DNA of 64,000 nt, taken from NCBI GenBank assembly GCA_003249215.1, contig QKJR01000003.1, positions 87,068-151,067 on the forward strand. Direction: 5' to 3'. The first letter of the stretch is position 1. Each line of letters begins with the position of its first letter. The DNA is from Rhodobacterales bacterium (GTDB lineage Bacteria > Pseudomonadota > Alphaproteobacteria > Rhodobacterales > Rhodobacteraceae). The translations under genes and the position numbers were made by a program. The notes below the pieces were generated by a model that did not search any database, was not told where the DNA came from, and saw nothing but the letters and a program-made list of their open reading frames with translations. Below are positions 8,948 through 61,795 of this stretch, piece by piece.

Positions 8948-9010
8948 GGGCTGGGGCGTAAACCGTCGTGGCCTTTCCGGCAAGTCCCGCGCACGCTCGG
9001 TCGGCGGACC

Positions 9011-9133
9011 GGGGGCCAGCCCCCGGACCCCCGGGATATTTGCGTCAGGTTGAAAGCGAGCCGGGGTTTCCCTTCAATCTGACGAAAATATCCCGGGGGT
9101 GAATTGCCGTAGGCAAGAGGGGCGCGAAGCCCC
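9011..9133 (-). repeat. Composite palindromic element, copy A1
   Basis: A 27-bp inverted repeat CCCCCGGGATATTT...AGGTTGAA (9028-9054) / its complement (9073-9099) with two mismatches and an 18-base spacer. On the dcd side come the small hairpins TTGCC-GTA-GGCAA (9104-9116) and GGGGC-GCGAA-GCCCC (9119-9133). On the other side is GGGGGC-CA-GCCCCC near 9011-9024. Read on the minus strand it begins about 18 bases after the dcd stop. The same layout recurs at 24.6, 24.9, 56.2 and 61.7 kb. Confidence 0.85.
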
Positions 9134-10312: not shown

Positions 10313-10390
10313 TGGTCGGGCCGGAGAGATTCGAACTCTCGACCTTCCGCCCCCCAGACGGACGCGCTAACCAGGCTGCGCCACGGCCCG
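10313..10390 (-). tRNA. tRNA-Pro (anticodon GGG)
   Basis: On the minus strand the sequence folds as a complete cloverleaf. The acceptor is CGGGCCG/CGGCCCG with discriminator A and encoded CCA. The D-arm is GCGC/GCGC with a 10-base loop, the anticodon arm is TCCGT-CTGGGGG-GCGGA with GGG at 34-36, the variable loop has 5 bases, and the T-arm is GAGAG-TTCGAAT-CTCTC. Total length with CCA is 78. It is followed by its own hairpin terminator. Confidence 0.97.
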
Positions 10391-14579: not shown

Positions 14580-14786
14580 TTACGCCGCGTCTTCGTCCAG
14601 ATCGACCTCGGCGGCTTGGGCCACCACTTCGCGGTCGTCATAGTGACCGCAGGCGCCACAAACGTGGTGCGGGCGCTTCAGCTCGCCACAGTTCGGGCAT
14701 TCCGCCGGATTGGCGGCAACAAGAGCGTCATGCGCACGGCGCATGTTACGACGGGAGCGCGTGACTCGGTTCTGCGGGACAGCCAT
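14580..14786 (-). CDS. rpmF: 50S ribosomal protein L32
   Basis: A 68-aa zinc-ribbon ribosomal protein. [22 protein letters not shown] is the typical basic N-terminus, followed by the zinc ligands [18 protein letters not shown] (C-x2-C...C-x2-C). Between DUF177 and plsX, as in most bacteria. Confidence 0.98.
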
Positions 14787-15051
14787 GTCTCAACCTCGGG
14801 TATGTTGGGGCGCAAGGCCCTGATTTTACAAAGGTTTCGTCACTGGAGCCGTTCTGCGGCCGGGTGCGAACCCAAACTTCGAATGAGGCCGGGAACATAC
14901 TGCGATTCCGCCGCGTTGCAAGCCCCTTTTTTCGGCTTTTTCCCGCGGGCGCGCGCAGTCTCACGCGTGGCCTGCAGGGTGGGCGCCGAAAGTCCCCTCG
15001 GATCGCACTCGCCGCCCGCAAAAGCGGCGATTGCGGTGGTTTTGGGCGCTC

Positions 15052-24559: not shown

Positions 24560-24656
24560 GGGGGGCGCCGCCCCCCGTCGCGTGCCGCGACTCCCCCCGG
24601 AGTATTTCGGCCAGGAAAAAGCGGCAGCTTGTGGCTTTTCCTGGTGAAAATACGCC
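24560..24656 (+). repeat. Composite palindromic element, copy B1
   Basis: After the ABC gene stop come hairpin GGGGGGC-GCC-GCCCCCC (24560-24576) and hairpin GTCGCG-TGC-CGCGAC (24577-24591). Then follows the large inverted repeat GGAGTATTTcggCCAGGAAAAAGC (from 24599) / GCTTTTCCTGGtgAAAATAC (to 24655). Its architecture is the same as the GGGATATTT copies, but with different arm sequence. Confidence 0.85.
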
Positions 24657-24682
24657 GCGCGGAGCGCTCGCAGGCGCAGGTC

Positions 24683-24847
24683 TCAATCCTTCGAGAGCGT
24701 GGCCTCGCGCGGGCTGCCCGGCGCCGAGGGGGCGGCGGGGCCCGCCTCCTTGATCCCCCAGCCGCCGGTGGGCACGGTCAGAACACCGGCCGGAGCGGCG
24801 CCGACGATCAGGCTCGAGAGCAGGGCAGTGGCAAGGGCAAGGCGCAT
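24683..24847 (-). CDS. Small secreted or membrane peptide, unknown
   Basis: A 54-aa ORF starting MRLALATALLSSLIVGAAPAG, a clean signal-peptide-like segment with a possible cleavage after AAPAG, followed by a short Gly/Pro/Ala-rich mature part. GGGAG lies about 8 bases ahead of the ATG. No family is recognised. The longer ORF to 24940 reads through the spacer. It sits between two palindromic elements. Confidence 0.5.
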   Translation of the reverse strand: MRLALATALLSSLIVGAAPAGVLTVPTGGWGIKEAGPAAPSAPGSPREATLSKD

Positions 24848-24931
24848 CTTCGGTCTCCCGTTCGATGGCTCAGCCTGCCAGAGGCGGGCGCGCGGCCCAA
24901 GTCCGGCATTCCCGACCCCCGGCGCCTCTTT

Positions 24932-25001
24932 CCCCCTCACCTGTGCAAAATATCCCGGGGGGTGAATTGGCCGCAGGCCAAGAGGGGGCGAGTAGCCCCC
25001 T
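24932..25001 (-). repeat. Composite palindromic element, copy A3 (half)
   Basis: Read on the minus strand after the RND permease stop: hairpin AGGGGGC-TACTC-GCCCCCT (24983-25001), hairpin TTGGCC-TGC-GGCCAA (24967-24981), then TTCACCCCCCGGGATATTTTGCACAGGTGAGGGGG. Only one arm of the large inverted repeat is present. Confidence 0.8.
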
Positions 25002-33548: not shown

Positions 33549-33579
33549 GGGTCGATCCTGCGCGGGATCGGCCCTTTTT
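33549..33579 (+). terminator. Terminator after der
   Basis: Stem GGGTCGATCC / GGATCGGCCC (one G-T pair), 6-base loop, five T. The T-run also starts the next palindromic element. Confidence 0.8.
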
Positions 33580-33660
33580 CTTGGCGAAAATACTCCCGCC
33601 GGAGGCGCAGGCTGGCCAAGGGCGGAAAGGTGAGTATTTGGGCCAAGAAAAAGCCCAGGG
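33575..33660. repeat. Palindromic element, copy B2 (arms in reversed order)
   Basis: TTTTTCTTGGCGAAAATACTC (33575-33595) pairs with GAGTATTTGGGCCAAGAAAAA (33634-33654). Compared with the other B copies the two arms are swapped in order, so the AT-rich ends point outward. Confidence 0.75.
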
Positions 33661-40330: not shown

Positions 40331-40490
40331 CGCTCCGCGGGGAGTATTGAGGCCAAGAAAAAGCCAGGGCCGGGCGCCCGGGGTTCTTCCGGGGCTCTCG
40401 GCTTTTCCTGGTGCAAATACTCCCGCCGGAGGCAGCTTTCCCTCCCGCGCGCCCGTTGTTTTTCTTGGCCAAAATCTGCCCCGCGGCGTG
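40331..40490. repeat. Palindromic elements B3 (three arms)
   Basis: Arm 1 GGGGAGTATTgaGGCCAAGAAAAAGCC (from 40339) pairs with arm 2 GGCTTTTCCTGGTGCAAATACTCC (40400-40424). A third arm TTTTTCTTGGCCAAAATcTGCCCC (40459-40482) follows in the same orientation as arm 2. CTCCGCGGGGAG and CTCCCGCCGGAG flank arms 1 and 2. The cluster fills the gap between the convergent RND operon and soxT. Confidence 0.8.
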
Positions 40491-51697: not shown

Positions 51698-51755
51698 CTC
51701 CGGCGGGAGTATTTCATCCAAGGAAAAGATGGGCTTTTTCTTGGTCCAAATACTC
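51698..51755 (+). repeat. Palindromic element, copy B5
   Basis: CTCCGGCGGGAGTATTTcatCCAAGgAAAA (51698-51727) pairs with TTTTTCTTGGtcCAAATACTC (51735-51755), starting 12 bases after the CorA-type stop and ending just before the convergent protease stop. It could serve as terminator for both strands. Confidence 0.85.
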
Positions 51756-56221: not shown

Positions 56222-56293
56222 GGGGGGCTGCGCGCCCCCCTCTTGGCTGACGCCAATTCACCCCTCGGGATATTTCGGCACAGGTGAGGGGTG
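56222..56293 (+). repeat. Composite palindromic element, copy A4
   Basis: Starting 12 bases after the DUF815 stop: hairpin GGGGGGC-TGCGC-GCCCCCC (56222-56240), hairpin TTGGC-TGAC-GCCAA (56243-56256), then CACCCCTC-GGGATATTTcggCACAGGT-GAGGGGTG (56259-56293). Here the large hairpin is replaced by a short one closing over GGGATATTT. Confidence 0.8.
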
Positions 56294-56376
56294 GCTTCGG
56301 TTGCCGGGGCGGCGGGCTGTCCGGGCGCCGAACCTGCAGTCGCGTGTTGGAACAGCGGGCCTTTATTGGGAACATT

Positions 56377-56406
56377 TTGACGTCAGTCATTCAACAACTA
56401 CGCCAT
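56377..56406 (+). promoter_or_regulatory. Candidate promoter of the DoxX gene
   Basis: TTGACG (56377-56382) and CATATC (56401-56406) are 18 bases apart, and TGACGTCA is a palindrome over the -35. This is an AT-richer island in the spacer. Confidence 0.4.
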
Positions 56407-56484
56407 ATCGTGCGTAATCATCCGGGCGTATCTCCTTGGTCATCAGATCACACACCGCCGATGCGGTGCTTCAGGAGAGAGAAA

Positions 56485-56904
56485 ATGACCAACCTTCTTC
56501 AAGACTTCGGCTTCGGCTCGACCACTGCCATCGCCGCCGCCGCCCTGATCCTGCGCCTTGCGCTTGGCGGGCTCTTCCTTGCCCATGCCTGGCTCAAGGT
56601 CTTCGTCTTCACGCCGGCCGGCGCCGCGGGCTATTTCAAATCTCTGGGCCTGCCGGGCCTCTTCGCCTATCTCACCATCGCGGCCGAAGTGCTGGGCGGT
56701 GCCGCGCTGATCCTCGGGTTCCAGACGAGCCTCGTCGCGCTGCTGCTGGTGCCGGTGATCCTCGGCGCCACGATCTTCGGCCATATCCGCAACGGCTTCT
56801 GGTTCACCAATGAAAACGGTGGCTGGGAATATCCCGCCTTCTGGACGCTGACGCTGGTGGTGCAGGCGCTGATCGGCGGCGGGGCCTTCGCGCTCACCGC
56901 CTGA
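56485..56904 (+). CDS. DoxX-family membrane protein
   Basis: A 139-aa protein with four helices: LRLALGGLFLAHAWLKVFVF, GLFAYLTIAAEVLGGAALILGF, LVALLLVPVILGATIFGH and LTLVVQALIGGGAFAL. LxxGGLFLxHG-like and AEVLGGAALILG are DoxX-family marks. Functions vary (quinone-linked, thiosulfate:quinone oxidoreductase in archaea, detoxification). A sulfur role is tempting given the sox genes 6 kb away but not supported by the sequence. GGAGAGAG precedes the ATG. Confidence 0.88.
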   Translation: MTNLLQDFGFGSTTAIAAAALILRLALGGLFLAHAWLKVFVFTPAGAAGYFKSLGLPGLFAYLTIAAEVLGGAALILGFQTSLVALLLVPVILGATIFGHIRNGFWFTNENGGWEYPAFWTLTLVVQALIGGGAFALTA

Positions 56905-56918
56905 CGAAAGGGGCCGTG

Positions 56919-56973
56919 CCCTTTTCCTGGTGAAAATACTCCATGGGGGTGCGGGGGTGTGAAACCCCCGCCT
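56919..56973 (-). repeat. Palindromic element, copy B6 (half)
   Basis: Read on the minus strand behind the exchanger gene: GCGGGGG-TTTCACA-CCCCCGC, then ATGGAGTATTTTCACCAGGAAAAGGG. Only one large arm is present. Confidence 0.75.
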
Positions 56974-61660: not shown

Positions 61661-61795
61661 AGGGGGCGCTGCCCCCTCGGGCCTGGCGGCCCTCACCCCC
61701 GGGATATTTGGTTCAGGTTGAAGGGCAGAGGCTGTGCATTCAACCTGACTGAAATATCCCGGGGGAGTCCCGCAGGGACGGGAGCAGAGCCCCCC
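61661..61795. repeat. Composite palindromic element, copy A2 (symmetrical)
   Basis: Hairpin AGGGGGC-GCT-GCCCCCT (61661-61677) and hairpin GGGCC-TGGC-GGCCC (61679-61692) are followed by the 27-bp arm CCCCCGGGATATTT...AGGTTGAA (61696-61722), a 16-base spacer and the complementary arm (61739-61765, three mismatches). Hairpin GTCCC-GCA-GGGAC (61767-61779) and a weaker G/C pair toward the SDR stop follow. Both flanks carry satellite hairpins. Confidence 0.85.

Follow-up and report, generated by a model that had tools for sequence, protein, structure and literature searches.

The locus at 24.6 kb of the window (the whole 64-kb stretch of DNA analysed here) and its neighbour at 24.95 kb carry composite palindromes whose layout recurs along the stretch with different hairpin stems. 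They raise the question whether only a fold is conserved in such elements, or also a sequence that something reads. Each unit, read inward, consists of a G-run/C-run hairpin (H1, GGGGCTCTGCCCC type), a small hairpin whose stem sequence varies between copies (H2), a frame, a 3-base spacer and a 9-base word. The frame is CCCCGGGATATTT (short form CCCGGGATATTT) or the alternative GGGAGTATTT. The latter is the class B frame, mostly preceded by GCCTCCGGC or GACGCTCCGC and mostly found in arms without H1 and H2, although mixed forms occur (24.6 kb, where a B-type word lies inside an A-type frame).

Units are arranged alone or as facing pairs. Direct reading and a scan for cores located nine loci in the window. 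Five are facing pairs (9.0, 24.6, 40.4, 51.7 and 61.7 kb), three are single arms (24.95, 56.27 and 56.93 kb), and one, at 33.6 kb, has two arms back to back. This count agrees with the approximately nine of the initial annotation, which included B copies (33.6, 40.4, 51.7 and 56.9 kb). The layout that it had described at 9.0, 24.6, 24.95, 56.2 and 61.7 kb was read directly at all five, but the large inverted repeat ascribed to each is present only at 9.0, 24.6 and 61.7 kb, those at 24.95 and 56.27 kb being single arms with H1 and H2. The features are as follows.

9008–9026, plus strand: fused H1/H2 hairpin, CCGGGGGC..GCCCCCGG
9027–9054, plus strand: arm, ACCCCCGGGATATTT-GCG-TCAGGTTGAA
9073–9100, minus strand: facing arm, word TCAGATTGA
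9104–9116, minus strand: H2 hairpin, TTGCC/GGCAA
9119–9133, minus strand: H1 hairpin, GGGGCGCGAAGCCCC
24560–24576, plus strand: H1 hairpin, GGGGGGCGCCGCCCCCC, 22 nt past the stop codon of an ABC transporter gene
24577–24591, plus strand: H2 hairpin, GTCGCG/CGCGAC
24592–24621, plus strand: arm, CCCCCCGGAGTATTT-CGG-CCAGGAAAA
24636–24658, minus strand: facing arm, GCGTATTT-TCA-CCAGGAAAA
24937–24965, minus strand: single arm without facing partner, TATTT-TG-CACAGGTGA, with a rare 2-base spacer
24967–24981, minus strand: H2 hairpin of the single arm, TTGGCC/GGCCAA
24984–25000, minus strand: H1 hairpin of the single arm, GGGGGCGAGTAGCCCCC
33576–33592, minus strand: class B arm core, back to back with the next
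33635–33651, plus strand: class B arm core, back to back with the preceding
40345–40361, plus strand: class B arm core of a facing pair
40403–40419, minus strand: class B arm core of a facing pair
51710–51726, plus strand: class B arm core of a facing pair between convergent genes
51736–51752, minus strand: class B arm core of a facing pair
56222–56240, plus strand: H1 hairpin, GGGGGGCTGCGCGCCCCCC
56243–56256, plus strand: H2 hairpin, TTGGC/GCCAA
56258–56291, plus strand: single arm, word CACAGGTGA, then a G-run able to pair with its own C-run
56922–56942, minus strand: class B single arm, word CCAGGAAAA
61662–61676, plus strand: H1 hairpin, GGGGGCGCTGCCCCC
61679–61692, plus strand: H2 hairpin, GGGCC/GGCCC
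61696–61722, plus strand: arm, CCCCCGGGATATTT-GGT-TCAGGTTGAA
61739–61765, minus strand: facing arm, word TCAGGTTGA
61767–61779, minus strand: H2 hairpin, GTCCC/GGGAC
61780–61795, minus strand: H1 hairpin, imperfect, GGGAGCAGAGCCCCCC

A DoxX-family gene (56485–56904) lies between two mutually facing single arms (56262–56940; words CACAGGTGA and CCAGGAAAA); the gene is missing from the orthologous place in R. viridis and UBA6796, which in each is occupied by one ordinary facing pair. The window also contains a tRNA gene (10316–10390, minus strand).

Words, hairpins and pairing in the source genome

The source genome is a 3.17-Mb draft (102 contigs, 82% complete), from which contig stretches totalling 1.23 Mb (~39%) were sampled, with genes called by a small hexamer model; this sample contains 168 arms. 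Genome-wide, CCGGGATATTTnnnnCAGGTTGAA has 81 exact matches, composed of CCGGGATATTT, 1–10 bases and CAGGTTGAA, the gap always being 4 bases with T as the last; as the reversed control gave 0, a chance origin is excluded. Several words occur side by side in this genome (TCAGGTTGA, CACAGATGA and variants, and CCA[A/G]GAAAA), and nearly all copies in any one genome belong to a small number of 9-base words. The spacer is 3 bases long in 147 of 150 arms. A partner above the level of shuffled sequence is lacking for 29 of 33 single arms, so that the arm is the unit. A G-run follows class-A single arms with CACA words more often than arms in pairs (9/15 vs 7/36, p = 0.008, in a post-hoc test) and could pair with the arm's own C-run. 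On contig C96 (33624–34100), two facing TCAGGTTGA arms stand 476 nt apart around a tandem CAGCTCT repeat, an arrangement that differs from every other pair.

The H2 stems, initially described as changing in sequence while staying complementary, do so in nearly all class-A arms: a stem of at least 4 bp is present at the fixed place in 79 of 84 (33.2 in shuffles, maximum 41) and one of at least 6 bp in 28 (4.3 in shuffles), with 39 distinct stems among them. When the 3′ halves were re-dealt among arms, only 8.6% were still complementary. Folding of the DNA gave z-scores against shuffles of −7.3 (9.0 kb), −7.2 (61.7 kb) and −3.0 (24.6 kb), and facing pairs can fold into a hairpin or cruciform.

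Both arms carry identical words in 26 of 44 facing pairs in the first sample of the source genome, a test without selection for matching bases, against 9.4 when words were re-dealt (maximum 17 in 2000). Across 45 facing pairs from seven genomes, those from other genomes having been chosen for at least 6/9 matching bases, which inflates the covariation figures, the word stem is 96% paired, and double changes over the whole stem number 91 vs 28 in shuffles (score 0.43 vs 0.13). Covariation of the inner stem, for which a statistical test had been proposed, is evident in 97.5% of cells paired vs 80.9% when shuffled. The spacers of facing pairs pair with each other only at the shuffled rate (52.6% vs 52.3%), and the centres differ between copies.

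Selection on a folded structure, as the initial annotation proposed, therefore explains H1, H2 and pairing, but not the genome-wide word, which is also present in partnerless arms, in both orientations, and is set off by an unpaired spacer of nearly constant length. Because conservation extends to lone arms, folding is only part of the constraint, and the conserved core is a sequence signal as well as a structural one.

Orthologous sites and distribution in the family

At the surE site (61.7 kb) the same composite is found in R. capsulatus DSM 1710 and R. viridis JA737, with GCAAGATGA and GCAAGATAA, respectively, as the word of both arms, and a remnant persists in UBA6796; no composite is present there in Sinirhodobacter, Defluviimonas or Pseudothioclava. 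Genome G131 (~87% identical to the source) has no exact copy of the main source core, and elements at the same sites as in the source carry CACTGTTGA or GCAAGATGA on both arms. In G135, two further sites that carry TCAGGTTGA in the source have CATCGTTGA, and a third persists as a single arm, its word being GCAAGATGA. The word has been replaced on both arms at orthologous sites between the source and G131, G135, R. capsulatus and R. viridis. One of these source sites lacks the element in G125, G126 and G127, whose convergent stop codons lie ~20 nt apart there, and few or no pairs were found in the stretches of these genomes that were examined.

DSM 1710 and genome G123, which we take to be R. 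capsulatus SB1003, have 19 of 21 orthologous elements in common (flanks ~93% identical). The other two were lost in SB1003, apparently by deletion joining the outer G-runs, with no canonical terminator in their place. Because these losses are unreplaced, and G125–G127 have only ~20 nt between stops, the element is dispensable at those sites. In counts that leave out the lost sites, paired arms of the two genomes differ at 2/130 positions of TATTT, 12/234 of the word and 28/78 of the spacer (flanks 6.7%), and partnerless arms mostly keep the word (1 of 54 word bases changed, counted from each side). Spacer changes are far more frequent in paired than in single arms (28/78 vs 1/24, Fisher p = 0.0017). 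At one site (DSM 1710 C3:32539) the centre between the words is inverted relative to SB1003, and an A/T to G/C change is compensated on both arms. The restriction of rapid spacer change to pairs and the inverted centre together suggest that pairs fold during replication. At the orthologue of DSM 1710 C3 site 163734, SB1003 has a ~40-nt palindrome (GTCGTCCATTGG..CCAATGGACGAC) within the H1 region of a single arm; this is absent from DSM 1710 and resembles a CGTC-type REP inserted in the element.

The occurrence of GGAGTATTT-type sequences in other Rhodobacterales, mentioned in the initial annotation, was borne out by a search for the frame CCCGGGATATTT-N11-A, which is present in 82 of 150 Rhodobacteraceae genomes (81 of 149 genera), the reversed frame giving single matches in two genomes. 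In those genomes whose matches were listed, one or a few own words recur and the spacer is free; such words include ACCCAAAGA, GCCCAAAGA, CGAAGATGA, CCAGAATGA, GCAAGAGGA, GACTTGAGA and CCAAGATGA. In five other genera the word holds 1.55–1.88 bits per base vs 0.40–0.75 for the spacer, with the final A imposed by the search pattern and the second word of one genome (G094, CAGAGTGAA) excluded. The complete architecture, with CACGAAAGA/CACGGAAGA, is found in Paracoccus versutus, and in Ruegeria TM1040 a single arm with GTTAGAAGA follows a MaoC-family gene. The frame is family-wide and the word genome-specific. Element load varies within the genus, an excess of the layout (96/94 in the source vs 0/0 in the control) was found, in a search beyond the family, in no other of 290 alphaproteobacterial genomes, and phages gave no match.

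Position at gene ends and possible functions

Elements are almost entirely extragenic (109 of 111, two being inside genes), are hardly ever found in promoters and lie a median of 50 nt from a stop codon. Of the 109 intergenic elements, 49 lie in gaps between convergent genes, where gap length predicts 16.9, 52 in tandem gaps, and 8 in divergent gaps, for which 31.7 are predicted. By inspection, convergent gaps with a class-A element contain no recognisable intrinsic terminator besides the element's own hairpins, and 29 of 50 element-free convergent gaps do contain one; as raw counts, exclusion between element and canonical terminator is only suggestive (odds ratio 0.44, p = 0.11). Some class B elements have a GC hairpin followed by a U-tract, and class B cores are of the A-tract/GC stem/T-tract kind (CCAAGAAAAAGCCC..GGGCTTTTTCTTGG type). 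Class A has only TATTT after H2 and no U-tract past the long hairpin. In one R. viridis facing pair (at about 14600–14800 of the stretch analysed) the centre is occupied by a canonical bidirectional terminator, AAAAAGGCGTCC..GGGCGCCTTTTCC, which shows that an element can enclose a normal terminator. Single arms are sense in 14 cases and antisense in 12, without strand preference, which disfavours a strand-specific terminator, and this role was rejected.

Our preferred reading, held tentatively and at somewhat less than even confidence, is a REP/BIME-like gene-end element without a RAYT, in which a candidate factor reads the word and the hairpins form a two-sided barrier at transcript ends. Fold alone leaves the word unaccounted for, and copying (transposition, conversion or template switching) accounts for shared words but not for differing spacers and centres; we therefore propose that a factor acting in trans, with a DNA-binding protein the likeliest candidate, reads TATTT and the word around three unread bases. 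A shift in its specificity would allow all words of a genome to be rewritten at the same time, the two arms of a pair alike. In favour of this reading are the constant length and lack of pairing of the spacer, the higher information content of the word, its replacement on both arms at orthologous sites and its retention in partnerless arms. As judged from placement and structure, the hairpins probably act as the barrier: in RNA from either neighbour, H1, H2 and the palindrome would fold into 3′ hairpins at which transcripts are stopped or trimmed, and read-through from one convergent gene into the other would be prevented. The tolerated losses in SB1003, the ~20-nt gaps of G125–G127, the lack of strand preference in single arms and the several words per genome argue against the preferred reading.

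A broader form, in which the whole family addresses its gene ends by a constant frame and a genome-specific word, read at hundreds of gene ends by a fast-evolving candidate factor and rewritten when lineages split, is possible but on balance unlikely. If true, it would mean that a whole bacterial family marks gene ends with a common frame and a genome-private core word, pointing to a candidate word reader under fast co-evolution. A comparison of close relatives, the laboratory species Rhodobacter capsulatus among them, would moreover offer a rare chance to follow a recognition word as it is rewritten throughout a genome. Annotators would then learn the identity of these intergenic hairpins, and the interpretation of 3′ ends and of read-through would be affected in R. 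capsulatus, a model for photosynthesis and gene-transfer agents.

Plain structural terminators, in which only the fold is selected and bidirectional intrinsic terminators or blocks to 3′ exonucleases operate with no sequence reader, are unlikely. Placement at gene ends, covariation, the variable yet paired H2, the cores of class B and a canonical terminator at the Defluviimonas orthologue of the 56.9-kb site speak for them. However, a fold needs neither one word per genome nor conserved partnerless arms, and the single arms in both orientations and the class A hairpin without a U-tract also count against it.

We likewise doubt, and rate marginally lower, a mobile REPIN/MITE family mobilised by a transposase in trans, for which the word would be the recognition site and gene-end placement mere tolerance. 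The copy number in the hundreds, the occurrence as singlets and as inverted doublets, the presence of several word families per genome and the variable load within the genus are all REPIN-like (PMC3116915), but the centres differ between copies and most orthologous R. capsulatus elements are kept, the two differences resembling deletion at the outer G-runs and not insertion. Mobility of the RAYT/REP kind is disfavoured, as Y1_Tnp was not found in the genus (0/18 genomes, including the source at 82% completeness; control positive in 5/14). An autonomous parent was rejected, since nowhere in the 1.23 Mb do facing arms of one word flank a transposase-like gene, as was a MITE, given that centres are unrelated and target duplication was not seen.

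A role in DNA uptake or GTA recognition, as a sequence that has dialects and was taken over at gene ends like the Neisseria DUS, is improbable: species dialects and inverted gene-end pairs match DUS (PMC3630211), but intragenic copies, common for DUS, are almost lacking here (the ground on which an uptake sequence was rejected), and the word is accompanied by a long hairpin frame. Least probable of all, and already disfavoured, is arm identity as an unselected by-product of palindrome correction by template switching: the centre inverted between R. capsulatus strains and the pair-only spacer change are signs of a replication hairpin, but correction would copy the spacer too, whereas spacers pair at chance (for which a copying artefact was rejected), and it could neither make one genome-wide word nor keep it in single arms.

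Relation to known systems

The initial annotation knew of no named family, and none was found in Rfam, where the 64-kb window had no match above the gathering score except one tRNA, or in the literature searched (open-licence papers), which holds no description of this repeat. Intrinsic bidirectional terminators resemble the element in placing hairpins between convergent stop codons, but differ in that class A has no U-tract, the word is fixed and partnerless arms are conserved in both orientations.

For the genome-specific words, the dialects of the Neisseriaceae DUS (PMC3630211) are the nearest parallel: in both systems one short word per species is changed across copies between relatives, and inverted pairs are linked to terminators. 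DUS are, however, common in genes and have no hairpin frame, unlike the almost purely extragenic element.

CGTC-tagged alphaproteobacterial REPs are, like the element, palindromes without a dedicated transposase, and occur mostly as head-to-head dimers (PMC3733652). They are defined by an 8–9-bp stem, a 4–5-base loop, a CGTC tag and a CCA tail (PMC3733652), none of which was seen in the arms by inspection, the core here being CCCGGGATATTT-N3-word; the text of that paper names neither Rhodobacter nor the other Rhodobacterales genera searched for.

Nearest in look and behaviour are REPs and REPINs (PMC3116915, PMC2817692). The likeness to REP/BIME/REPIN systems, a comparison the initial annotation had called for, extends to hundreds of extragenic palindromic units occurring as singles or as folding inverted doublets, to several sequence families per genome and to lineage-specific sequences. 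It fails in the missing RAYT and in the GTAG tag, which is not conserved beside the cores in the 123 arms listed (by inspection). The element further differs from REPs in its two extra hairpins, its free 3-base spacer and the few words per genome set in a family-wide frame. Because the defining RAYT is absent from 18/18 genomes of the genus, the element is not filed as a REP; it is best read as REP-like but distinct from REP proper, and even as only a RAYT-less relative it would show how such repeats persist without a known transposase.
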